From an uncultured Pelagibacteraceae bacterium (lineage in GTDB: Bacteria > Pseudomonadota > Alphaproteobacteria > Pelagibacterales > AG-422-B15): 38,226 nt of DNA. The notes under the pieces were generated by a model. It had not been told where the DNA came from. It was given only the letters and a program-made list of their open reading frames with translations, and made no database searches. The stretch is from assembly GCA_902614655.1 (NCBI GenBank), contig CACMLX010000001.1:133127-171352 (forward strand), written 5' to 3'. Below are positions 19,274 to 33,441 of this stretch, in pieces. Within the stretch, counting starts at the first letter, position 1; each line of letters starts with the position of its first letter. Made by a program: the position numbers and the translations under genes.

Positions 19274-20614
19274 ATGAATTTATTCATTAACAGATCAACA
19301 TCATTGTTAATTTCTCTTATGTTTTTTTCAACTATTTCCTTTTCTGCCAACGCCGAAAGACTCTCAGTGATGGTAGAAAGTGTTCTTGAAAAGCATGAAG
19401 ACATAGTTAACGCAAAAAAAGAATTAGAAGAGGCAAATAGAGACGTTACTGATGCCCTGCTTGTTTACGCGCCCGACCTTTCCGTAAAGTGGGAAGGTGG
19501 ACAAAACGACAAATATAATGCTGGTTCACCATCACAGATCGATGGATTTGATACTTATGATTGGACTTGGAAGCAAAAAATAATGGACTCTGGCGCTTCC
19601 ATGGCTGATGTGAGAAATAAGAACCTTGCGGTTGAAAAAAAACAACTTGAGTTGATCACATCACGAAACGATCTTTTAATCGAGGCTGCTGATGCATATC
19701 TTGGATTAATTAAAGCTTCAGAAAAACTTGAGGCCTCCGTTGCTGCTGAAGAAAATACCAGACAAACAACGGGTCAAGAGGAAATTAGAGTTCAGGTAGG
19801 TTCCGGATTAGCTTCTGATGTCTTAAAGGCAAAAAGACAACTTGCTAGTGCACAGAAAACTGTAATCTCTGACGAAAAAAGTTTTAAATCAGCAAAGTAT
19901 ACATATGAAAAACTCTTTAATGTTGATGAAGTAAACCTTAGCGCTTTGACCAAACCACGTCTTGCGGCATCTACATTATCAATGGTTCCCGAGTCAATGG
20001 AAGCAACAGTAGAAATTGCGCTTGCTAATAATAGAGATTTACAAATTGCCAAAATTGATGTCGAAACGGCAAGAAATGATTTAACAAGTGCACTTGCAAA
20101 TTTCGGACCAACAATTGATGCCGAGGCCAAGTATTCTGATAAAAGTGATGCATCACACACTAAAGGAAGTCATTATGAAGAACAGATTAAAGTAACAGTT
20201 GAGTTTCCTATTTCAGGTATTTATATGGAAATGCCTAGTTATTTAAATGATAGGTCTGCTCTTGATCGGGCTATAAATGATCTTGCGTTGAAAGAGCGAG
20301 ATACAATAAAATCAGCTAAAGAGGCTTGGGTTGAATACGCAAATGCAAGAACATTATTGTCATATAGTGAAAATGAGGCAACTATCGCTAAAGAGCTCTT
20401 AACCATTGCTCAAAAGGAAAGGGCTGCTGACCAAACTGACGCAGCTGCGGTTTTGGCTGCAGAAGAAGCATTGGAAAGTTCACTAAAAGATTTATCAGAT
20501 GATAGTATGTCTTTGTTAACCACTGTTTATGAAATTTTAGATGTAATAAACCTTCTTGAACCAGATATGGTAGAAGATACGACTAAACAAGGAACATTTA
20601 ATACTCCGTCTTAA
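19274..20614 (+). CDS. TolC-family outer-membrane efflux/secretion protein
   Basis: A 446-residue outer-membrane channel of the OEP/TolC family, with a signal peptide at residues 1-27 (cleavage after ANA). It shows the internal duplication of the family: long helices around residues 30-75 and 120-215 in the first half and 255-290 and 330-425 in the second, each pair separated by a beta-strand-rich segment ('LSVKWEGGQNDKYNAGSP', and 'IDAEAKYSDKSDASHTKGSH'). TolC proteins form trimeric ducts for type I secretion and drug efflux. Its place directly upstream of a giant secreted protein and its ABC/HlyD exporter points to type I secretion, though it may also serve other pumps. Confidence 0.88.
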   Translation: MNLFINRSTSLLISLMFFSTISFSANAERLSVMVESVLEKHEDIVNAKKELEEANRDVTDALLVYAPDLSVKWEGGQNDKYNAGSPSQIDGFDTYDWTWKQKIMDSGASMADVRNKNLAVEKKQLELITSRNDLLIEAADAYLGLIKASEKLEASVAAEENTRQTTGQEEIRVQVGSGLASDVLKAKRQLASAQKTVISDEKSFKSAKYTYEKLFNVDEVNLSALTKPRLAASTLSMVPESMEATVEIALANNRDLQIAKIDVETARNDLTSALANFGPTIDAEAKYSDKSDASHTKGSHYEEQIKVTVEFPISGIYMEMPSYLNDRSALDRAINDLALKERDTIKSAKEAWVEYANARTLLSYSENEATIAKELLTIAQKERAADQTDAAAVLAAEEALESSLKDLSDDSMSLLTTVYEILDVINLLEPDMVEDTTKQGTFNTPS

Positions 20615-20668: not shown

Positions 20669-23600
20669 ATGCCAGTAACGCCAGCAGAAGCACAAGAATT
20701 TTTTCAAGAGGTTGCCGCCGCGGGCTCCCCTGAAGAACAACAGGCATTGATTCAAAATTATGCGGCTAATAATGATAATCCTGACGAAATGTTGGCAGCA
20801 GTCGTACAAGCTAATCCTGCCGCCGCTCAACAAATAGCAACTGTTACAGCACAAGCTATCCCAGAGCAAGCCGCAGAAATTGCTGGAGCAATTGCCGCAG
20901 CTGCTCCTGCCGCAGCAAATGCTACAGCTGCTGCAATGGCTGCCGCTGTACCAGATATTGCAGAGGATGTTGCTTCTGATGTTGTTCAAAATGCACCAGC
21001 TGCTGCTGGCGCTGTAGCTACATCTTTAACACAAATTAATCCAGAAGGTGCCGCTGAAATGGCTGCAGCAATTGCTGAAGTTGCTCCTGCAGCTGCGGGC
21101 GCTGTTGCAACAGCTGTTGCACAAGCTGCACCTGAACATGCTGTGGATGCCGCTGCATCAATGGCTGCTGCAAACCCTGCTGCTGCAAGTGGAGCTGCAA
21201 GCGCTGTAGCTGCTGCTGATCCTGAAGCTGCTTCTCAAGTCGCGACTGCCATGGCTCAGGCCGCACCTGAAGCTGCTGCCGCTGTTGCTGCCGGAGTTGC
21301 ATCTGGTGTTGCGCAAGCTGCTGTTGCGGAAGTTAATCAAGAAACTGCACAGGCAAACGCTGAAGTCCAAGCCGACGCGCAAGCTCAAGTTGCTGAAACT
21401 GGTCAAGAGGGCCTTGCTGATATCCAAGCTGATTTACAAGAAACGCTATTAGAAAATAATCAAGCAGGTCAAGAGGCTGCACTTGAGGCATCACAAGCTG
21501 CAACACAAGAAATTATTGCAGAGATGATTGAAATGAATCCTGATGCTGCAGCAGAAATTATTGCAGGAACAGCTGCATCGAACCCAGATGCTGCTGCGGA
21601 AATGGTTCAAGAAATGATGGCATCAAATCCTGAAGGAGCCGTTGAATTATGTGCTGATATAGCTGAGGCAAATCCAGCTGCCGCTGCACTTGCGACAGAA
21701 GCAATTATTGAAGCAGCTCCTGAACAAGCTATTGAAGCAACTGCCGCTATGGCTGAAGTTGCACCAGCTGCTGCAGGAGCCGCTGCTGAAGTTATGGCTG
21801 AGTTAGCACCTGATCAAGCAGGGGAAGCTGCTATGGCTATGCAGGAAGCTGCACCTGAAGCTGCCGCTGCAATTGCTGGTGGTGTGGCACAAGGTAATCC
21901 TGAAGTTGCTGCAGAAGTAGCTACAGAAATGGCTGCTGCTGATCCAGAAGCTGCAGCTGATATTGCAACAGGTGTTGCTGTTGCTGCACAAGCAAATGCC
22001 GCTCAAGAAATTGCCGCTGCTCAGGTTGAAGCGCAAGCACAAGTTGCCGATGCAACAGCAGACTTGCAGGTTGATTTAACATCTGACGATCCAAACGTAG
22101 TAGCTCAAGCTCAAGCTGCAATAGCTGAGGTACAAGATGCTGCTCAAGAAATAATTGCTGAAGCGCAAGGTGCTGCAGCAGAAGTCGCACAAGAATTAGC
22201 TGGCGATATTGCTGGCGCAATGATGGAGGCCAATCCTGAAGCAATTGGAGATATTGCTGAACAAATCGCTGAATCAGCTCCTGGAGCTGCTGAAGGAGTT
22301 ATGGGAGCAATTGCAGAAGTTGCACCAGAACAAGCAGTTGAAGCAGCTGCTACTATGGCTGATGCCAATCCAGTAACCGCAGGCGCTGCTGTTGGAGTAG
22401 TGAGTGAAGCGTTACCTGAACTGGCTACCGAGGCTGCCGTTGCTATGGCTGAAGCTGCACCAAGCGCTGCTGCAAATATTGCTGCAACCGTTGCTCAAGC
22501 CAATCCGGAAGCCGCAACGGAAATTGCAAGTGAAATGGCAGCTGTTGCTGCTGGAAATGAAAATTTTTCTCAAGATGAAGCATTAGCTATGCAAACAGCA
22601 ATTGCAACCCAAGTTGCAAGTGCAGCTCCTGAAGCTGCAGCAGAAGTTGCTGGAGCAATGGTTGATGCAATGACGGCTGTTGACGGCAATGCAAGCGAAG
22701 GTGCTCTTGCAGAAGCAGCTGCTGCAATGACAGCAAACGTTGCATCCGCTGCAACTCAAGCCGCTCCTGAGCAAGCAGCTCAACTTGCAGATACAATGAT
22801 GGAGCAAATGTCAGAGATTCCTGGTATTGAAATTGATACCCTTGCTGAAACAGGAGCTAATATGACTTCATCAATGGCTACCGCAGCTGTGCAGGCAAAC
22901 CCAGAAGCCGCAGCTGAAATTGTTGGTGATATGATGACAGCAATGGAAGTTGTTCAAGAAGCTGATGGTTTCTCTGAACTAAGTGATATTTCAAGAAATT
23001 TTGATATGGGAGAGCAGATGGCTCAGATGGCAACAAACATAGCCACTCAAGCTGCTGCAGCGTCACCGGAAATTGCTGCTGAAGTAGCTGGGGCAATGAT
23101 GGAACAAATGGCTGAAATATCTGGCGCTCCTGCAGATTTTGATCCTGCAGAACAAATGGCTGAAATGACAGCGAACATTGCAACAGCTGTTGCGGCTGCT
23201 GATCCTGAAGCTGCTGGAGAAATTGCAGGCCAGATGATGGAACAAATGGCTGACATACCAGGTGTATCGCCGGAAGATATGGCAGACTTCAATGCAGACA
23301 TGGCAGCACAAGTCGCTCAAGTTGCACCTGAAACTGCCGGAGAAGTATTGGGAGCAATGGCTGCCGCTGATCCAGGCGCTGCCGCTGAACTAGCAACTGC
23401 AATGGCAGAAGCAAACCCTGCTGCAGCTGGTGAAGCGATGGCGGGTCTTGCTGAAGCTGCACCTGAACTTGTTGCAGATGTGGCCGGAGCTGTTGCCGAA
23501 GCTGCACCAGAATTATCAGGAGCACTGGCTGCTGGAGTTGCATCGGGTAACCCAGAGGTTGCCGCTGAAGCCGCTCTTGCATTAGCAGAGGCAAACCCAG

Positions 23601-26600
23601 ACGCTGCGGCACAAATTGCTGCAAGCACTGCTGCTGCAAATCCAGAATTTGCTGCTGAAGTAACAGCTGCAATGGCTGATGCCAACCCTGACGCTGCAGC
23701 TGACATGGCTGCTGCTGTAGCCCAATTTGCACCTGATGCTGCTGCATCCGTTGCATCTGAACTTATTTCTAATGACCCTGAAGCTGCGGGTGAACTTGCA
23801 GCTGCAATGGCCGAAGCAAATCCAGCTGCTGCTGGAGATATTGCAGGTGCATTGATGGAGTCTGCACCTGAACAAGCTGTGGCTGCTGCTGCGGCGATGG
23901 CCGAGGCTAGTCCTGCCGCTGCTGCATCTGCGGCGCAAGGTATGGCTGCTGTTGTGGCCGACTCAGGACTCTTTGATGGTGGAAACGCCGACATAGCAAC
24001 TCAAGCTGCTGCTGCGATGGCAGAAGCCGCACCAGAAGTTGCTGCTTCGGTTGCTGCAGGTATTGCAAGTGGTAACCCTGAAATGGCTGCCGATGTTGCT
24101 GTTGCAATGGCAGAAGCTGCACCTGATGCCGCTTCCGCAATCGCAGGTGGAATGGCAAGAAGCGCACCTGATGCTGTTGGTGATGTTATCGGAGCAATGG
24201 CCGATGCCAATCCAGACGCTTTAAATGATATTGCAACAGGAGTTGCACAAATTGCACCGGCTGCCGCTGGTGATGCAATGGCTGCTGTTGTTGATGCAAA
24301 CCCTGAAGCTGCAGTTGCTGCTGCAACTGCAATGGCTGCTGCTAACCCTGCAGCCGCTCAAGATATTACTGCAGCAATAATAGAAGTTGATCCTGCTGCT
24401 GCTGCAGATACCGCTGCAGCGTTAGCGGAAGCTGTACCTCAAGCTGCTGGAATGATTGCTGCAGGTGTTGCAGAGGCTGCACCTGAAGCTGCTGCGGATG
24501 TGGCTGGCTCGCTTGCTGAAGCCAATCCTGCCGCTGCTGCATTAATCGCTACTTCTGTCGCTCAGGCTGCACCAGAACTTGCTGGAGATATTGCCGCCGA
24601 TATGGCCGCTGTTAATCCAGAAGCCATGGCAGGTGCTGTAGCAAATATTGCTGCGACTGTTGCTGCTGCAGATCCAGACTTGGCTGCTGATATTGCTGGA
24701 GAGATGGCTGCGATTAATCCTAATGCCGCTGGAGCAATTGCAAATGTTGTTTCAGCTCAAGCTCCGGAAGCTGCTGCTGAAGCTGCTGCCGCACTGATAC
24801 AAGCTAATCCAGATGCCGCTGGAGCAATTGCCGCAGGTGTTGCCGCTCAAGCACCAGAAGCAGCTGCTGATGCAGCTACTGCACTGGTTGAAGCTAATCC
24901 TGATGCCGCTGCTGCAATTGTAGGTGGAATGGCAAATGCAAATCCAGACGCTGTTGCTGATGTTGCTGGAGCTATGATGGAAGCCGCTCCTGACGCTGCC
25001 GCTGCTATGGCTGGCGCTGTGGCTCAAGCCGCTCCTGAAATGGCAGGAGATATGGCTGCTGCTATTGCCGAGAGTAATCCTGAACTAGCCGTTGAGGCTG
25101 CTGCTGCTATGGCTGAGGCCAACCCTGCTGCCGCACAAATGGCTGCAGAAGGAATGATGGAAGCCGCACCTGAGCTTGCTGCTGATGCAGCAAATGCGAT
25201 GGCTGCTGCTGCGCCTGAAGCTGCTGCTGATATCGCAGGTGGAATGGCAATGGCGAATCCTGAAGCTGCTGCTGATATTGCTGGTGCAATGGTTGCAGCT
25301 AACCCTGAAATTGCAGGCGATATTGCAACTGGTGTTGCGATGGCCGCTCCTGTTGCAATGGAAAATGTTGCAAATACTTTAATAGAAGCAAATCCTGAAG
25401 CGACAGCTACGATGGCCGCTGTTCTTGCGGAAACTGCACCTGGAGCTGCTGACAATATGATGAGCTCCGTTGCTGAATTGAACCCGGATGCTGCATTAGC
25501 CGTTGCTGGTGCAATGGCTGAAGCAAACCCAATGGCTGCTGAGGGTACTGCTGGAGCAATAGCTGATGCATTGCCTAATATTGCTGCTGATGCTGCGGGC
25601 GCAATGGCTGCCGCTAACCCAGACGTTGCTGGAGATATTGCTGTAGGAATGGCTGGAGCAAATCCAGAAATTGCTGGAGATATTGCTGGGGCTATGATGG
25701 ATGCTGCTCCTGAGGCCGCTCAAGGAATTGCTCAAGGAATTGCCACTGCTGCACCTGATCAAGCTGCAGATGTTGCTGGTGCGATGGCTGAAGCAAATCC
25801 AGAATTTGCTGGAGATATTGCTGGCGGTATGGCCGCTGGTGACCCAGGACAAGCCGCTGAAATAGCAACAGCTATGGCTGCTGCAAATCCAGAAGCCGCA
25901 GCTGATATAGCTGGTGGTGTAGCAGAGTTTGCACCAAGTGCTGCAGGAGACGTTGCCGGCGCTATGGTTGAAGCTAATCCAGATGCAGCAACAGATATGG
26001 CCGCTGCAATGGCTGAAGCAAATCCAATTGCCGCAGGGGCTGCAATGGGAGCAATGGCAGAAGCCGCTCCTGAGATTGCAGCAGACGCTGCAAGCGCAAT
26101 GGTCGCTGCAAATCCAGATGCTGCAGGTTTAGCAGCGCAAAGTTTAGCAGACGCTGCTCCTGAATTAGTAGCTGAAGCTGCAACCGCAATGATGGATGCT
26201 GCACCTGATGCAGCTGGTGCGATTGCTGGTGGAGTTGCAAGAGGTGATGCTGATATTGCCGCTCAAGTTGCAACAGATATGGTTAATGCCAATCCAGAAT
26301 TAATGGGAGATATTGCAGGAGGCGTTGCACAAATGGCTCCTGGTGCTGCTGGTGATGTAGCCGGCGCGATGGTTGAAGCAAATCCAGATGGTGCTGCTGA
26401 CATGGCCGCCGCTGTTGCCGAAAATGTTCCTGGAGCTGCTGGTGCTGTGGCTGGCGCAATTGCAGAAGCTGATCCAGCTCTAGCTGCTGAAGCTGCTGGT
26501 GCGATGATGGAAGCTAATCCAGCTGCTGCCTCTGCAGCTGCTGCAGGTATGGCAAATGCTGCTCCTGAAGTTGCAGGCGATGTTGCTGGCGCAATGATGG

Positions 26601-29545
26601 ACGTCGCAATGGCGCCTGATTTTGCTGCTGATTTTGCTGAAAATGCAGCTACTGCAAATCCAGATTTGAGCCCAGAACAACTAGATGCATTAGTAGATAA
26701 CTTTGCGGGTAATGCTGTTGGAGCAATTGCTCAAGGAATGGCAGCTGGTGACCCTGATATAGCAGGTGATATGGCTGGCATCATGATGGATGCTGCTATG
26801 GCTAATCCTGAGATGGCTGAAAATTTTGTAGGCGAGATTGCAGGTGGTATGGCCGCAGGTGCTCCACAACAAGCAGGTGAAATTGCTGTTGGAATGATGG
26901 AGGCAAATCCAGACATGGCTGGAGATATTGCTGGTGGAGCCGCTTCTGGAAATCCTCAAGTTGCAGCAGGTGTTGCAATGGAAATGGTTGGAGCAGATCC
27001 GAGTTTAGTTAATGATATTGCTGGTGGAGTTGCTGAAATGGCACCTGCCACAGCCGGTGGAGTTGTTGGCGCAATGGTTGCTGATAATCCTGATGTTGCT
27101 GCTGGTGTAATTGATGCAGCAATGACAGCAAATCCAGCCGCTGCTGGCGCTGTTGCTGGAGGAGTTTTAGCGGCTGTTCCTGATGGAGAGGCTGCTGTTG
27201 GAATTATGCAAGAAGTTGCTGCCGCTAATCCAGATGCAGCCGGAGCTTTTGCAGGTGGAATGGCGCAAGCCAACCCTGCTGCAGCAGGCGAAATAGCCGG
27301 TAGCCTTGCAGCTATTGATCCAGCACTTGCTGGAGATATGGCAGGAGCTATGGCAACCGCTAACCCAGCTGCTGCAACTTTAGTTGCTGCAGGTGTTGCT
27401 GAACTCGCACCTGATGCCGTGGGCGCAATTGCGGGCTCTATGGCAGATGCAAACCCTGCTATTGCAGGACAAGTTGCTGCAGGTATGGCCCAATTTGATC
27501 CTGGTGCGGCTGCACAGTTTGCGGGTGATTTAGTTGCCGCTAATCCTGAAATGGCTGCAAATATTGCAAGTGGAATGGCACAGCTAGCTACACAAGGTGG
27601 TATGGCAGATCTTGCTGGAGAGTTTATGGGCCAAATGGCTGCTGCAAACCCTGAGATGGCTGGAATGATGGCTGCTGGTATGACACAAATGATGGGTAAT
27701 CAAGGCGCAGCATTCATGGCAGATATGGGTGACGTAATGGGAGCTGATATGGCTGCACAATTACAAGCTGATATGCAAACTCAAATGGCTGACATGCAAT
27801 CAATGATGCAAAATGCTATGCAAGGTGGAGAAATGTTCATGGGACCAATGATGACTGCAGACATGATGGGCCCAGCAGACTTTGGTGGTATGATGGATAT
27901 GGATATGGGTATGCTCCCTGGTATGGATATGGGCATGGGGCCAATGATGGGACCTATGGATCCAATGATGGGCATGATGGGACCTATGGACCCTATGATG
28001 GGTATGGGACCTATGATGGGACCAGATCCAATGATGATGGGCATGGACCCTATGATGATGGGAATGCCTGGACCTATGATGGGACCGGATCCAATGATGA
28101 TGGGTGGTATGCCTGGAATGGGACCTATGATGGGACCAGATCCAATGATGCAACTGGGTATGGACATGGGTATGGACCCAATGATGATGATGACTGATCC
28201 AATGGCGGCAATGAATATGGGTATGGACATGATGATGAATGACCCTGCCATGATGCAAATGGGGATGGATTTCTTTGGCGGCCCTGAAAATATGATGAAT
28301 GAAATGATGATGGGCATGAACGATATGATGATGAGCGGTATGCCTGGAATGGGTCCTATGATGGGACCAGATCCAATGATGGGTGGTATGCCTGGAATGG
28401 GACCTATGATGGGACCAGCAATGCCTATGGGCCCTATGGATTATGGGCCTATGCCTGGAATGGGACCAATGATAGATCCAATGACTGGCGCAATGATGCC
28501 TGGAATGCCAATGGATACGCAAATGGGCTTAGATATGTTAGTTGCGCAGGGAATGGACCCTGCAATGGCTACTCAGCTTGGAATGATGGATGACCCATTT
28601 GGAATGATGCCTATGCCTGGAATGGGTCCAATGGTAGATCCAATGTCTGGTGCAATGATGCCTATGCCTGGAATGGGACCAATGATAGATCCAATGACTG
28701 GCGTTCCAACAATGAGTGGATTTAATGCGGGAATGGAAGGCATGGATCCTATGAATCCAATGAATCCAATGAACCCAATGAATCCAATGGCGCCTTTGTA
28801 TGATCCCTCAGTAATGAACATGGTTGAAGGTATGGGGTTTGAGTTTGGACCATTGGATCCAATGAACCCGATGAATCCAATGGGACCAGAAATGCCTATG
28901 GGACCAGGAATGCCAATGGCACCAATGGGACCAGAAGTGCCAATGGGACCAGGAATGCCTATGGGACCAGAAATTCCAATGGGACCAGCAATGCCTATGG
29001 GGCCAGAAATGCCAATGGGACCAGCAGAACCTATGCAAGGAAGTGATCCTGCTGAGGCTATTAATTTTGCAGGAATTTTGTTTAACGGTATTCAATATGA
29101 GGCAGGACCTGCGGGATGGTATTTATATCAAGCCGCGCTAATGAATCCTGGAGCTCCACCACCGGGACCAGGCTTACCAATGGTTCATGAGTCAACACCT
29201 GATCAGGATTTCTTTAACGGTTCTCCTGGACAACCAGATACTTTTGTATTCACACTCGGTCAAGGACCAGGAGCTGGGACATCCGATGAATCTGCCATCG
29301 CTGCGAACATGCCTGCTGCTGATAATATAGTGAATTTTTCCAGAGGTGATGGTGACAAAATCAAGTTGTATGATGTTGATGGTGTGACTCTAATTTCAGA
29401 TCCAATTACCATTAATGCAACTCTTGGCGCCACATCCATGGGTGGAATGACAGCTGTCTATAAACTTGGAACAAGTGAGGTTGTATTCACTAGTAACAGT
29501 GCTGACATTATATCATTATCAGACGCTGACTTCACCATAGTTTAG
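20669..29545 (+). CDS. Giant Ala-rich repeat protein with Met-rich region and type I secretion-like C-terminus
   Basis: A 2958-residue protein with no signal peptide, expected to leave the cell by type I secretion. Four parts are visible. Residues 1-34 are a short acidic N-terminus. Residues about 35-2340 are Ala-rich repeats with a 15-residue period, roughly A-N/A-P-E/D-x-A-A-x-I-A-x-x-M-A-E; Asn/Ala-Pro-Glu looks like a helix start, so each unit should be one short helix. Gln/Glu-rich, coiled-coil-like breaks occur near 214-290 and 436-510, and Met-rich 'MMEQMAEI' units near 715-870. Residues 2389-2789 are about 35 percent Met, the rest mostly Pro, Gly, Asp. Residues 2790-2958 end in 'PDTFVFTLGQG', 'NIVNFSRGDGDKIKLYD' and a hydrophobic tail 'SDADFTIV', as in RTX/serralysin-type secretion domains. 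There are no GGxGxD calcium repeats. I saw one Cys (328). Surface adhesin or filament is a guess. Confidence 0.88.
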   Translation: MPVTPAEAQEFFQEVAAAGSPEEQQALIQNYAANNDNPDEMLAAVVQANPAAAQQIATVTAQAIPEQAAEIAGAIAAAAPAAANATAAAMAAAVPDIAEDVASDVVQNAPAAAGAVATSLTQINPEGAAEMAAAIAEVAPAAAGAVATAVAQAAPEHAVDAAASMAAANPAAASGAASAVAAADPEAASQVATAMAQAAPEAAAAVAAGVASGVAQAAVAEVNQETAQANAEVQADAQAQVAETGQEGLADIQADLQETLLENNQAGQEAALEASQAATQEIIAEMIEMNPDAAAEIIAGTAASNPDAAAEMVQEMMASNPEGAVELCADIAEANPAAAALATEAIIEAAPEQAIEATAAMAEVAPAAAGAAAEVMAELAPDQAGEAAMAMQEAAPEAAAAIAGGVAQGNPEVAAEVATEMAAADPEAAADIATGVAVAAQANAAQEIAAAQVEAQAQVADATADLQVDLTSDDPNVVAQAQAAIAEVQDAAQEIIAEAQGAAAEVAQELAGDIAGAMMEANPEAIGDIAEQIAESAPGAAEGVMGAIAEVAPEQAVEAAATMADANPVTAGAAVGVVSEALPELATEAAVAMAEAAPSAAANIAATVAQANPEAATEIASEMAAVAAGNENFSQDEALAMQTAIATQVASAAPEAAAEVAGAMVDAMTAVDGNASEGALAEAAAAMTANVASAATQAAPEQAAQLADTMMEQMSEIPGIEIDTLAETGANMTSSMATAAVQANPEAAAEIVGDMMTAMEVVQEADGFSELSDISRNFDMGEQMAQMATNIATQAAAASPEIAAEVAGAMMEQMAEISGAPADFDPAEQMAEMTANIATAVAAADPEAAGEIAGQMMEQMADIPGVSPEDMADFNADMAAQVAQVAPETAGEVLGAMAAADPGAAAELATAMAEANPAAAGEAMAGLAEAAPELVADVAGAVAEAAPELSGALAAGVASGNPEVAAEAALALAEANPDAAAQIAASTAAANPEFAAEVTAAMADANPDAAADMAAAVAQFAPDAAASVASELISNDPEAAGELAAAMAEANPAAAGDIAGALMESAPEQAVAAAAAMAEASPAAAASAAQGMAAVVADSGLFDGGNADIATQAAAAMAEAAPEVAASVAAGIASGNPEMAADVAVAMAEAAPDAASAIAGGMARSAPDAVGDVIGAMADANPDALNDIATGVAQIAPAAAGDAMAAVVDANPEAAVAAATAMAAANPAAAQDITAAIIEVDPAAAADTAAALAEAVPQAAGMIAAGVAEAAPEAAADVAGSLAEANPAAAALIATSVAQAAPELAGDIAADMAAVNPEAMAGAVANIAATVAAADPDLAADIAGEMAAINPNAAGAIANVVSAQAPEAAAEAAAALIQANPDAAGAIAAGVAAQAPEAAADAATALVEANPDAAAAIVGGMANANPDAVADVAGAMMEAAPDAAAAMAGAVAQAAPEMAGDMAAAIAESNPELAVEAAAAMAEANPAAAQMAAEGMMEAAPELAADAANAMAAAAPEAAADIAGGMAMANPEAAADIAGAMVAANPEIAGDIATGVAMAAPVAMENVANTLIEANPEATATMAAVLAETAPGAADNMMSSVAELNPDAALAVAGAMAEANPMAAEGTAGAIADALPNIAADAAGAMAAANPDVAGDIAVGMAGANPEIAGDIAGAMMDAAPEAAQGIAQGIATAAPDQAADVAGAMAEANPEFAGDIAGGMAAGDPGQAAEIATAMAAANPEAAADIAGGVAEFAPSAAGDVAGAMVEANPDAATDMAAAMAEANPIAAGAAMGAMAEAAPEIAADAASAMVAANPDAAGLAAQSLADAAPELVAEAATAMMDAAPDAAGAIAGGVARGDADIAAQVATDMVNANPELMGDIAGGVAQMAPGAAGDVAGAMVEANPDGAADMAAAVAENVPGAAGAVAGAIAEADPALAAEAAGAMMEANPAAASAAAAGMANAAPEVAGDVAGAMMDVAMAPDFAADFAENAATANPDLSPEQLDALVDNFAGNAVGAIAQGMAAGDPDIAGDMAGIMMDAAMANPEMAENFVGEIAGGMAAGAPQQAGEIAVGMMEANPDMAGDIAGGAASGNPQVAAGVAMEMVGADPSLVNDIAGGVAEMAPATAGGVVGAMVADNPDVAAGVIDAAMTANPAAAGAVAGGVLAAVPDGEAAVGIMQEVAAANPDAAGAFAGGMAQANPAAAGEIAGSLAAIDPALAGDMAGAMATANPAAATLVAAGVAELAPDAVGAIAGSMADANPAIAGQVAAGMAQFDPGAAAQFAGDLVAANPEMAANIASGMAQLATQGGMADLAGEFMGQMAAANPEMAGMMAAGMTQMMGNQGAAFMADMGDVMGADMAAQLQADMQTQMADMQSMMQNAMQGGEMFMGPMMTADMMGPADFGGMMDMDMGMLPGMDMGMGPMMGPMDPMMGMMGPMDPMMGMGPMMGPDPMMMGMDPMMMGMPGPMMGPDPMMMGGMPGMGPMMGPDPMMQLGMDMGMDPMMMMTDPMAAMNMGMDMMMNDPAMMQMGMDFFGGPENMMNEMMMGMNDMMMSGMPGMGPMMGPDPMMGGMPGMGPMMGPAMPMGPMDYGPMPGMGPMIDPMTGAMMPGMPMDTQMGLDMLVAQGMDPAMATQLGMMDDPFGMMPMPGMGPMVDPMSGAMMPMPGMGPMIDPMTGVPTMSGFNAGMEGMDPMNPMNPMNPMNPMAPLYDPSVMNMVEGMGFEFGPLDPMNPMNPMGPEMPMGPGMPMAPMGPEVPMGPGMPMGPEIPMGPAMPMGPEMPMGPAEPMQGSDPAEAINFAGILFNGIQYEAGPAGWYLYQAALMNPGAPPPGPGLPMVHESTPDQDFFNGSPGQPDTFVFTLGQGPGAGTSDESAIAANMPAADNIVNFSRGDGDKIKLYDVDGVTLISDPITINATLGATSMGGMTAVYKLGTSEVVFTSNSADIISLSDADFTIV
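20771..27688 (+). repeat. Tandem array of about 45-base / 15-residue Ala-rich units
   Basis: Successive units such as 'ANPDAAAQIAASTAA', 'ANPEFAAEVTAAMAD' and 'ANPDAAADMAAAVAQ' (around 23590-23730) are each exactly 15 residues, giving on the order of 140 copies. Third codon positions vary among GCT, GCA, GCC and GCG, so the units are protein-level repeats diverged at DNA level rather than a fresh tandem expansion. The region is visibly richer in GC than its neighbours because of the alanine codons. Confidence 0.9.
27836..29035 (+). repeat. Met/Pro/Gly low-complexity region with near-identical DNA repeats
   Basis: A unit beginning GGACCTATGATGGGACCAGA recurs almost unchanged at 28007, 28070, 28121, 28352 and 28400. 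Another, CCTGGAATGGGACCAATGAT, recurs near 28454, 28617 (one base different) and 28667. NPM triplets are repeated at about 28750-28790. Unlike the Ala repeats upstream, these are close to identical in DNA, which suggests more recent slippage or duplication. Confidence 0.85.
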
Positions 29546-29606: not shown

Positions 29607-31253
29607 ATGCTGTTCGTTTTTAAAAAAATATATATAAATCGATTACTCTTTTTTAAGATATTGTTTGCTTCATTTTTAGTAAACATTCTTGCGCTCGCTA
29701 CACCAATATACGTTATACAAGTCCTGCAGAGATACATTGCCTATGGAGTCTTTTCTACACTTGTAACCCTATTTTGTGGAATAGTTTTTATAGTTATTTT
29801 TGAATTTTTTTTCAAAAATATACGGCATCGTATGGCTAGACAATACGAGTTAGAAAATATTATTTTTACAAATCAAGTTTTGAATAAATTTGTTACTATT
29901 AAATCTCAAATATATGAATTATCAAATAAATTTCGAATTGATATCATCAACCATCATTTAGGAAATATTCAAAACACTTTCTCAGCAAGCAACATAATTT
30001 CAATTTTAGACGTACCTTTCACCATCGTTTTTCTAATTGCTCTTTTTTTAATACACTATCAATTAGGACTAATTACTATTTTCTTTCTGGGACTTCCATT
30101 TGTAATTAATAAATTTATAAATGCTCGATTAAACAGTTTATCAAAGGTTGCTATTTTAGATAATAATAATTCGTACAAACTTTTTGAAAATGTTCTAACA
30201 AGAAATATTACGATTAAATACTTTAAGATTATTAATTTGATTAATAAGTCATGGAATTTGATTGCTAATAAGATGGCAAACACAAAAGAAAACCTTGAGT
30301 CAGAAAAAAATATTTTAAGTTCTTTGTCTGGCTTAACAGCATCACTTTTGACAGTTTTTATTATTGGTTGGGGAGCCACTTTAGCAGTAGCAGGAGAAAT
30401 ATCTGTTGGAGCTTTGATTGGTGCAAATATATTAGCCGCAAGAGCTCTGATGCCCATAAATCGTTATTTATTACTTCAAGAAAATCTATCAAAAATGGAA
30501 GACTCGTATCGAGAGTTAACTCAATATTCTAAATTTGCCTCAGAAAAAACTGAGGGTAGACAGTTATCAGAATTAAAGGGTGAGATAAAGGTCAAAGATG
30601 CATATTTTCAATATCCGGATCAAAAAAATCCAATTTTTGAAGCCTTAAGTTTTGAGGTGGTTCCTGGTCAGATAACAGTAATTATAGGATATAATGGATC
30701 AGGTAAAACTACTCTTATCAAATCGCTTGTAGGAATTCTGGATTTTACAAGAGGAAATTTTTTTCTTGATAATGTTGAAGTTTCACAGCTCTATGAAAAA
30801 TGGTATAGAGAAAAAATTATTTACTCGCCGCAAGAACCACAATTTATAGATGGCTCTATCAGGGACAACATTATTGGTGAAAACAAAATAGATCAAGAGA
30901 ACTTAGTTAAGATATTAAAGGAAGTAGATCTCATCAATTTCATTAACAGCGAACAAAATGGAATAAATAAACAATTAGATAATAGGGGGGAACAATTGCC
31001 TTTAGGCATAAGAAAAAGAATGTCCTTAGCAAGAGCTTTGATTAATGATGGGACATTGGCATATCTAGATGAACCTACGGAAGGATTAGATAAGGAAGGA
31101 AAAAAAGCTGTTTTAGATATTATAAAAAGGCTTAAAGTACAAAAAAAAACCATATTAATTGCATCAAATGACCAAGAAATTATTAATTCTGCAAATATAC
31201 TTATTGATTTAAACTCAAAACCAAAGCCTATAATAGTAAAGCAAAAGAATTGA
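29607..31253 (+). CDS. Type I secretion ABC exporter (PrtD-like) with degenerate ATPase motifs
   Basis: Inner-membrane exporter, 548 residues, with a transmembrane domain fused to an ATPase as in PrtD/HlyB, without an N-terminal C39 peptidase. Membrane segments lie at about 15-40, 50-72, 132-152, 155-172, 245-265 and 270-290. Walker A is GYNGSGKTT (361-369), the Q-loop is 'YSPQEPQFIDGSIRDNI', and Walker B is 'LAYLDEP' with Asp488 and Glu489. Two motifs are unusual: the signature reads LPLGI (464-468) instead of LSGGQ, and the H-loop position holds Asn521 ('TILIASNDQE') instead of His. It starts 61 bases after the giant gene and is followed after 4 bases by hlyD, so it is very likely the giant protein's exporter. 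Confidence 0.9.
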   Translation: MLFVFKKIYINRLLFFKILFASFLVNILALATPIYVIQVLQRYIAYGVFSTLVTLFCGIVFIVIFEFFFKNIRHRMARQYELENIIFTNQVLNKFVTIKSQIYELSNKFRIDIINHHLGNIQNTFSASNIISILDVPFTIVFLIALFLIHYQLGLITIFFLGLPFVINKFINARLNSLSKVAILDNNNSYKLFENVLTRNITIKYFKIINLINKSWNLIANKMANTKENLESEKNILSSLSGLTASLLTVFIIGWGATLAVAGEISVGALIGANILAARALMPINRYLLLQENLSKMEDSYRELTQYSKFASEKTEGRQLSELKGEIKVKDAYFQYPDQKNPIFEALSFEVVPGQITVIIGYNGSGKTTLIKSLVGILDFTRGNFFLDNVEVSQLYEKWYREKIIYSPQEPQFIDGSIRDNIIGENKIDQENLVKILKEVDLINFINSEQNGINKQLDNRGEQLPLGIRKRMSLARALINDGTLAYLDEPTEGLDKEGKKAVLDIIKRLKVQKKTILIASNDQEIINSANILIDLNSKPKPIIVKQKN

Positions 31254-31257
31254 CAAA

Positions 31258-32463
31258 ATGAATAAAAATTTAAATGAGAAATACGAAAAAACTACTAACT
31301 TATTATTTTATAGTTTTTCAGGCTTTCTATTAACCTTAATTATTTGGGCATTTGTATTTCAAATAGATATTGTTAGTAATGCTGAAGGTCAAGTCATACC
31401 TGTAGGAGAGATAAAGACGATTCAACACTTAGAAGGAGGCATTATTGAAAAAATATTAGTCAAGGAAAGTGAATATGTTGAAATAGGCCAGCCTCTAGTA
31501 GTTCTTGCGGCGACAGCAAGTGAAGTTGATGTAGAAGAGTTGCAGGTAAGAATGGATACTCAAATTATAAAATCAATAAGATTAGAGTCTGAAATAAACA
31601 ATTTTGATATTCCAATTTTTCCAGAAGAATTATCATCTAAAAGAGAAAAGATAATTAATAAGTCAATGGAATTGTTTTTAAGTCGCCAAAAAACATTCAA
31701 TGGCAACCTAAAAGAAATTGATACATTAGCAGGTAAGGCTCAAACAGATGTAGATATCCTGTTAAGACAAGCTGAAATGAGTCAACAATTAATGGAAGAG
31801 CAGGTTACGTCTGAGTTTGCTCACCTCAATATTCTTAAGGAGCTTAATAATGCAAAGGGAGTTCTTGAGGAAACAATTGAGAAGAGAGAGAACTATATTA
31901 ATGAATTTATTGAGGAAGCTCGTAATGAACTTCAAATCGCGCAACGAGAGCTTTCTCAATCTGAAGAGACTATGAAAAAATTAAGAGATAGCTTGAACAG
32001 AACCACTATTACCGCACCAGTGGATGGAGTTGTTAAAAATTTATTTTTTGTGACAGAGGGCGGAGTAATACAGCCTGGTGGCTCTATTTTAGATTTGGTA
32101 CCTACAAAAGACAGTTTAATTGTTGAGGCAAGATTGCCTAATAGTGATATTGGGTTTGTAAAAATAAACCAAGAAGCTGTTGTTAAGCTCTCTTCGGCTG
32201 ACTCAGTTAATTTTGGACAAATTAATGGACGTGTAATTCAAATCAGCCCTGATACTGAGGAAGATGAGAATGACAAGAGGATTGTTTTTTATAAGATCCT
32301 TGTTGAAACAGACCAAAACTTCTTTGAGAGCAAAAATAGAGTTTATCAATTAGTGCCTGGTGTCAAGGTTGTTGCTAGCATTCAAATAGGGCAAAGAACA
32401 GTTGCAAATTACCTGCTTTCTCCATTTATGGATACAATGGATCAAACATTTCAAGAAAGGTAA
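31258..32463 (+). CDS. HlyD-family membrane-fusion protein
   Basis: Periplasmic adaptor (401 residues) linking the ABC exporter to a TolC-type channel in type I secretion. An N-terminal cytoplasmic tail is followed by one membrane segment (about 16-36). The first half-lipoyl block is 'GEIKTIQHLEGGIIEKILVK' (50-69), the helical hairpin is about 95-255 with many Glu, Lys and Gln, and the second half-lipoyl block is 'TITAPVDGVVKNLFFVTEGG'. The C-terminal beta domain ends near 'YQLVPGVKVVASIQIGQRTV', the usual HlyD ending. It starts 4 bases after the exporter stop. Confidence 0.94.
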   Translation: MNKNLNEKYEKTTNLLFYSFSGFLLTLIIWAFVFQIDIVSNAEGQVIPVGEIKTIQHLEGGIIEKILVKESEYVEIGQPLVVLAATASEVDVEELQVRMDTQIIKSIRLESEINNFDIPIFPEELSSKREKIINKSMELFLSRQKTFNGNLKEIDTLAGKAQTDVDILLRQAEMSQQLMEEQVTSEFAHLNILKELNNAKGVLEETIEKRENYINEFIEEARNELQIAQRELSQSEETMKKLRDSLNRTTITAPVDGVVKNLFFVTEGGVIQPGGSILDLVPTKDSLIVEARLPNSDIGFVKINQEAVVKLSSADSVNFGQINGRVIQISPDTEEDENDKRIVFYKILVETDQNFFESKNRVYQLVPGVKVVASIQIGQRTVANYLLSPFMDTMDQTFQER

Positions 32464-32505
32464 AAATAATCTATCATTTACGTGATATCATTGTATGATG
32501 TTGTC

Positions 32506-33441
32506 ATGTACCGTACTGCTCTCATATCTTCTTTATTAGTTATTTTTGTCTGTTCATCAATTGCTCATGCAGATGATAGATTGGATCAAATAATACAGAA
32601 TAAAATTACATCTGGTCTTACTAATTTAGGAAATAAAATTGCAGAGTCTATTCCTGGAGAAGGCGATACCGAATTTACAATCTCAGAGCAAGATAATTAT
32701 GATATTAAATTTTCAATTCTAGCCGTTCGTCCAATACTAAAAAACCCATATAGTGGATTAAATAATGAGCATTTATATTTTACTCAATTTCGATTAAGCA
32801 GTCATGAGCCATTTGCCAATGGAGATGAAAGAACCTTATTAAATGCAGGTATCGGCTTCAGAACTCTTGTAAATAACAACAATGCCATATTAGGCGCAAA
32901 CTTATTCCATGACTATGAATTTGACGAAGGGCATCAGAGAGGAAGCATGGGAATTGAATACCTTGCCAATAATTTTCAGTTATATGCAAATATTTATGAC
33001 AGATTGTCTGAAAAAGTTAGTTATACAGTAGGTTCGTCTAACGTTTATGAGGAAGTGTTGAATGGATATGAATTTTCTGTTGTTGGATCTTTACCTTACC
33101 TACCATGGGCAAACGTTATATATAATGGTTATAGCTGGGACAAATCAGGTGCAGACATAGAGGGTGATAAAATTTCTTTAGAAGCTCAAATTATTAATGG
33201 AGTATTATTTGAATATGGTAAAAATGATATTGAGAACAGCTCTGACGATGAAGATTTCTATAAGATCACGTTTAAATGGCCGAGAGATCATTTATCGCCA
33301 ACGCTCGTATCTCATGGAATAACTGAATATGCATTTCCAAAATATAATATGAAAAATGAAATGCTCCATAAAGTTAGAAGAACAAACAATATTATAACTG
33401 AAAAAAATATGGGAGGAGTTTATATAGCTAGATCACAATGA
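32506..33441 (+). CDS. Inverse-autotransporter-type outer-membrane beta-barrel without passenger
   Basis: Starting at ATG 32506 gives 311 residues with a clean signal peptide ending AHA; an upstream in-frame GTG at 32482 would add eight residues and neither start has a good ribosome-binding site. The mature part resembles the beta-domain of intimin/invasin (IAT): 'LYFTQFRLSSHEPFANGDER', 'LNAGIGFRTLVNNNNAILGA', 'NLFHDYEFDEGHQRGSMGIE' and 'YLANNFQLYANIYDRLSEK', with alternating strands and the N-D-x-x-L-G-A-N-x-F-x-D-Y pattern. Proteins of this family normally continue into Ig-like passenger domains; here only about 40 residues follow. It could anchor or receive the giant protein at the surface. 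It overlaps the next gene by 4 bases (ATGA). Confidence 0.82.
   Translation: MYRTALISSLLVIFVCSSIAHADDRLDQIIQNKITSGLTNLGNKIAESIPGEGDTEFTISEQDNYDIKFSILAVRPILKNPYSGLNNEHLYFTQFRLSSHEPFANGDERTLLNAGIGFRTLVNNNNAILGANLFHDYEFDEGHQRGSMGIEYLANNFQLYANIYDRLSEKVSYTVGSSNVYEEVLNGYEFSVVGSLPYLPWANVIYNGYSWDKSGADIEGDKISLEAQIINGVLFEYGKNDIENSSDDEDFYKITFKWPRDHLSPTLVSHGITEYAFPKYNMKNEMLHKVRRTNNIITEKNMGGVYIARSQ

Follow-up and report, generated by a model that had tools for sequence, protein, structure and literature searches.

Can an ABC exporter that has kept only half of the canonical ATPase site still hydrolyse ATP, and in what assembly would it do so? The question is raised by a gene within a 38,226-nucleotide stretch of DNA from an uncultured Pelagibacteraceae (SAR11) bacterium, hereafter the window, whose host genome measures 1.08 Mb and is 83% complete. 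The encoded protein matches PF00664 and PF00005. It has the Walker A Lys, the Q-loop Gln and the Walker B Asp-Glu pair of the canonical site but misses the other half, the signature Ser (LSGGQ type) and the H-loop His, in whose place it carries LPLGI and Asn521 (Table 1). We place Asn521 at the H-loop because the TILIASND stretch aligns gap-free with the canonical H-loop region. Codon reading and alignment bore out, with exact coordinates, both altered motifs reported in a preliminary description of this DNA, as well as its statement that Walker A, the Q-loop and Walker B Glu489 are intact. The structure predicted for the monomer from 42 relatives (mean pLDDT 90) has the exporter fold of PCAT1, HlyB, TAP and PrtD, with Z of about 28-30.

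Table 1. Genes of the secretion locus and nucleotide-binding motifs of the ABC exporter (window positions).
Feature	Position	Strand	Remarks
TolC-like outer membrane efflux protein	19274..20614	+	PF02321
Giant protein, probable substrate	20669..29545	+	2958 aa; Ala-rich repeats, then Met/Gly/Pro-rich low-complexity repeats
ABC exporter half-transporter, probable T1SS permease-ATPase	29607..31253	+	548 aa; without N-terminal C39-like domain
Walker A, residues 361-368, GYNGSGKT	30687..30710	+	Intact; Lys367 invariant in 64 clade members
Q-loop Gln409, inside PQEP	30831..30833	+	Intact
Signature motif, residues 464-468, LPLGI instead of LSGGQ	30996..31010	+	Codon 464 starts at 30996
Walker B Asp488-Glu489	31068..31073	+	Intact
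D-loop, residues 492-495, EGLD	31080..31091	+	Glu492 near-invariant in clade
H-loop position, Asn521 instead of His	31167..31169	+	Codon aat
HlyD-family membrane fusion protein	31258..32463	+	Same operon as ABC exporter; TIGR01843, 319 bits (cut-off 208.65)
Lone inverse-autotransporter beta-barrel	32482-33441		PF11924; without passenger; adjoins T1SS

The exporter is encoded together with an HlyD-type adaptor and an outer-membrane factor, in the gene order TolC-like protein, giant protein, ABC, HlyD, and its neighbourhood suggests that it is most likely the inner-membrane ATPase of a type I secretion system (T1SS). The pairing of ABC with HlyD is retained in SAR11 and in most other relatives. 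The giant protein, which matched none of the NCBIfam models, is probably the cargo exported by the adjoining system. In most SAR11 operons the final ~100 residues of the protein whose gene immediately precedes that of the ABC exporter can be aligned (DTFVFxLG...DKI...DxDFTxV), the C-termini from L036 and L037 aligning poorly with the others, and outside this region the giant-protein sequence diverges between operons. From this pattern we infer that the conserved C-terminal ~100 residues may form the substrate's secretion module. Met/Gly-rich proteins resembling the giant protein lie upstream of the ABC gene even in a distant relative (L090), and a giant repeat protein was noted at L090, L103 and L105 as well as in the window. 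The PF11924 barrel downstream of HlyD occurs in some SAR11 relatives only. Across 45 pairs of SAR11 operons, the ABC exporter diverges faster than HlyD (mean identity 51% versus 71%).

Matches to the models of known T1SS ATPases span the length of the exporter and all fall below the cut-offs, with 274.6 bits for the PrtD subfamily (TIGR01842, cut-off 510.15), 307.6 for the LssB subfamily (TIGR03375, 693.1) and 194.2 for the HlyB subfamily (TIGR01846, 725.55). The exporter shares with these proteins the fold, an operon that also encodes HlyD and an outer-membrane factor, and a large probable substrate adjoining; like PrtD, it is without a C39-like domain. In contrast to all three, the third signature residue in the exporter's own clade is never Gly, and Asn or Gln stands at the SAR11 H-loop. 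It is most likely a variant inside the known T1SS kind rather than a new kind of system. Among 29 readable curated PrtD-type ATPases, the signature Ser is present in 29/29 and the H-loop His in 27, the remaining two, whose motifs are normal in other respects, having Asn and Gln (one each). L202 and L225 are PrtD-type ATPases whose signatures read LSGGE or LSGGQ but whose H-loop has Asn or Gln rather than His. When 15 other ABC ATPases from the same genome were aligned, all had the His except one LivF-type protein, which has Gln.

Odd motifs alone speak for an assembly error or gene decay, and the preliminary description had named orthologues with normal motifs as the outcome that would point to either. 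We compared 97 related genomes, the bacterium's own among them. The ABC gene is present in 26, hence in 25 relatives, 24 of which belong to the same genus. No orthologue with normal motifs occurs among these 26 SAR11 copies: the signature is altered in every one, with LPxGI in 25 copies and LALGI in the remaining copy (L022), and the H-loop His is absent from 25/26, replaced by Gln (12 copies), Asn (11), Ala (L031) or Ser (L037) and retained only in L036. The frames are open in these 26 independent genomes, and dN/dS (unsaturated pairs only) ranges from 0.03 to 0.09, meaning that the gene is under strong purifying selection. Because orthologues share the changes at such low dN/dS, error or decay can be ruled out for all practical purposes. 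Unusually relaxed constraint on the nucleotide-binding domain was considered separately and rejected, as an MsbA-like control displays the same excess of membrane-domain over nucleotide-domain conservation. The sampled genomes of a sister family within the order contained no relative of the exporter, so the variant is not a trait of SAR11 in general.

Profile searches covered 385 genomes from the class and 398 from the phylum. A set of relatives stood out, with scores well above those of other exporters; its members occur in further Alphaproteobacteria and in a second class, where genomes often encode two or three of them. In the 64 full-length members the signature takes the form L[SAP]xG, with Ser, Ala or Pro second, never Gly third and always Gly fourth. 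Lys367, Gln409 and Asp488 are invariant; Glu489 is kept in 61/64, with Asp in three, and Asp522, directly following the H-loop residue, is near-invariant, as is Glu492. L128, L131 and L133 have Asp for the Walker B catalytic Glu (DDP) together with a retained H-loop His. Outside SAR11 the clade usually keeps the His, and 23 of the 27 full-length members without it have Asn or Gln. A quickly built tree omitting the motif columns, in which the placement of long rows is unsure, separated the 64 members from 12 other exporters (support 88) and united SAR11 as one group inside the clade (support 100). Across the whole tree, the presence or absence of the His requires a minimum of seven changes, so that by this reconstruction the residue has been lost several times.

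The exporter thus apparently belongs to a separate clade undescribed so far; we found no description in the open-access literature, an absence that is no proof. Viral contigs contained no relatives, and plasmid matches were all below 60% identity, the best being Azospirillum relatives of the clade. In two members from the second class, the ABC exporter and HlyD are fused into a single chain (L181:8332-11325 and L191:6977-10036). Directly adjoining the ABC gene in Azospirillum and two second-class genomes is a ~1020-residue fusion of a periplasmic-binding protein with a mechanosensitive channel, MscS (L086:11861-14926, L188:11011-14085, L189:11246-14353). Elsewhere (L088:5715-7991 and L185:4014-6695), the ABC gene adjoins genes for a TPR-glycosyltransferase 41 (OGT-like) and a TPR-sulfotransferase, hinting that the exported protein may be modified.

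The preliminary description had raised the possibility of pairing with another half-transporter. Heterodimers commonly have a degenerate site (PMC7756269), and the genome encodes an MsbA-like protein and a third exporter. Yet a heterodimer in which a second, canonical half-transporter contributes one normal site is improbable. In a 99% complete relative (G019) the only exporter-type half-transporters are this ABC protein and the MsbA-like one, itself expected to form a homodimer; a third exporter is present in a 100% complete genome (G040), but the identity of that third protein varies between genomes. The operons examined contain one ABC exporter gene each, and the two ABC-HlyD fusions also speak against a partner. 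The pairing proposal therefore found no support. Since the 99% complete relative offers no partner and two relatives are such fusions, the exporter is most likely a homodimer with two altered sites. In this it would differ from TAP1/TAP2, ABCC1 and TM287/288, which likewise have an altered signature and, in some, an altered H-loop: one of their sites is canonical, whereas in the probable SAR11 homodimer both sites would be alike, with the Walker B Glu kept.

The preliminary description had argued from HlyB that the H-loop His is needed for hydrolysis. This holds for the H662A mutant, which has less than 0.1% of its ATPase activity left (PMC6222333), but need not extend to Asn or Gln: mutation of the His in NBS2 of human ABCC1 abolished transport except when the replacement was Gln or Asn (PMC7756269). 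Simulations suggest that the signature Ser acts as a catalytic 'finger'. Our best explanation, to which we assign a probability of about 0.6, is that a homodimeric T1SS ATPase powers export of the 2958-residue protein through HlyD and the TolC-like channel and still hydrolyses ATP with Asn or Gln in place of His. Each of its two ATP sites would combine intact Walker A and B motifs with the L-P-x-G-I signature of the opposite subunit and an Asn/Gln H-loop. Glu489 would position the attacking water, and Asn or Gln would preserve the hydrogen bond that His makes with the gamma-phosphate. Instead of a Ser side chain, the loop of the signature would use backbone contacts, Gly467 and the start of the helix to grip ATP.

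LivF and LivG of E. coli display the same kinds of change, LivF having Gln at the H-loop and LivG the signature LAYGD, and these two meet in one composite site. They form an importer and a heterodimer, however, with Glu in place of the LivF Q-loop Gln, and their second site combines His with MSGGE; because that other site is canonical in these respects, LivF/LivG offers no proof that two altered sites suffice. We nonetheless consider retained hydrolysis to be likelier, because Asn and Gln work in ABCC1, 23 of the 27 His-less clade members have one or the other, two PrtD-type ATPases do as well, and LivF/LivG provides a further parallel. Against it stands the loss in the SAR11 protein of both the His removed in H662A and the Ser held to be catalytic, and Asn/Gln mimicry leaves the Ala of L031 and the Ser of L037 unexplained.

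That double loss gives some weight, perhaps a quarter of ours, to a homodimer whose two sites are truly impaired, closing tightly on ATP and hydrolysing it very slowly or by other chemistry during low-turnover export of the giant protein. The same kinds of loss mark the impaired sites of heterodimeric exporters (PMC7756269). Such impairment sits poorly, though, with the conservation of the Walker A Lys and the Walker B Glu in all SAR11 copies, with relatives that retain the His beside the same kind of signature, and with the fact that Gln and Asn are the very replacements still functional in ABCC1. A similarly tentative proposal takes in the widespread clade of homodimers as a whole, with SAR11 sites that, in the absence of Ser and His, may use a different catalytic arrangement, possibly involving Glu492 and Asp522, or a slow, clamp-like use of ATP suited to very large substrates. 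As for the earlier reading of the site as altered, what stands is an exporter of T1SS type whose two changes are fixed in orthologues; simple degeneration does not stand, because the non-Gly third signature residue is clade-wide, the clade mostly keeps its His, and Asn and Gln are functional in NBS2 of ABCC1.

In conclusion, work on HlyB assigns direct catalytic roles to the signature Ser and to the His of the H-loop. Here a strongly selected, probable T1SS ATPase has neither, and its probable homodimer would lack any canonical site that could compensate. L036, which retains His, and other close kin of the exporter that combine LSLGI with His form a natural mutant series. Such an ATPase without either residue, together with this series, makes the disputed need for Ser and His directly testable. 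Furthermore, the finding suggests that one of the most abundant groups of ocean bacteria has a clade of secretion ATPases dedicated to giant proteins.
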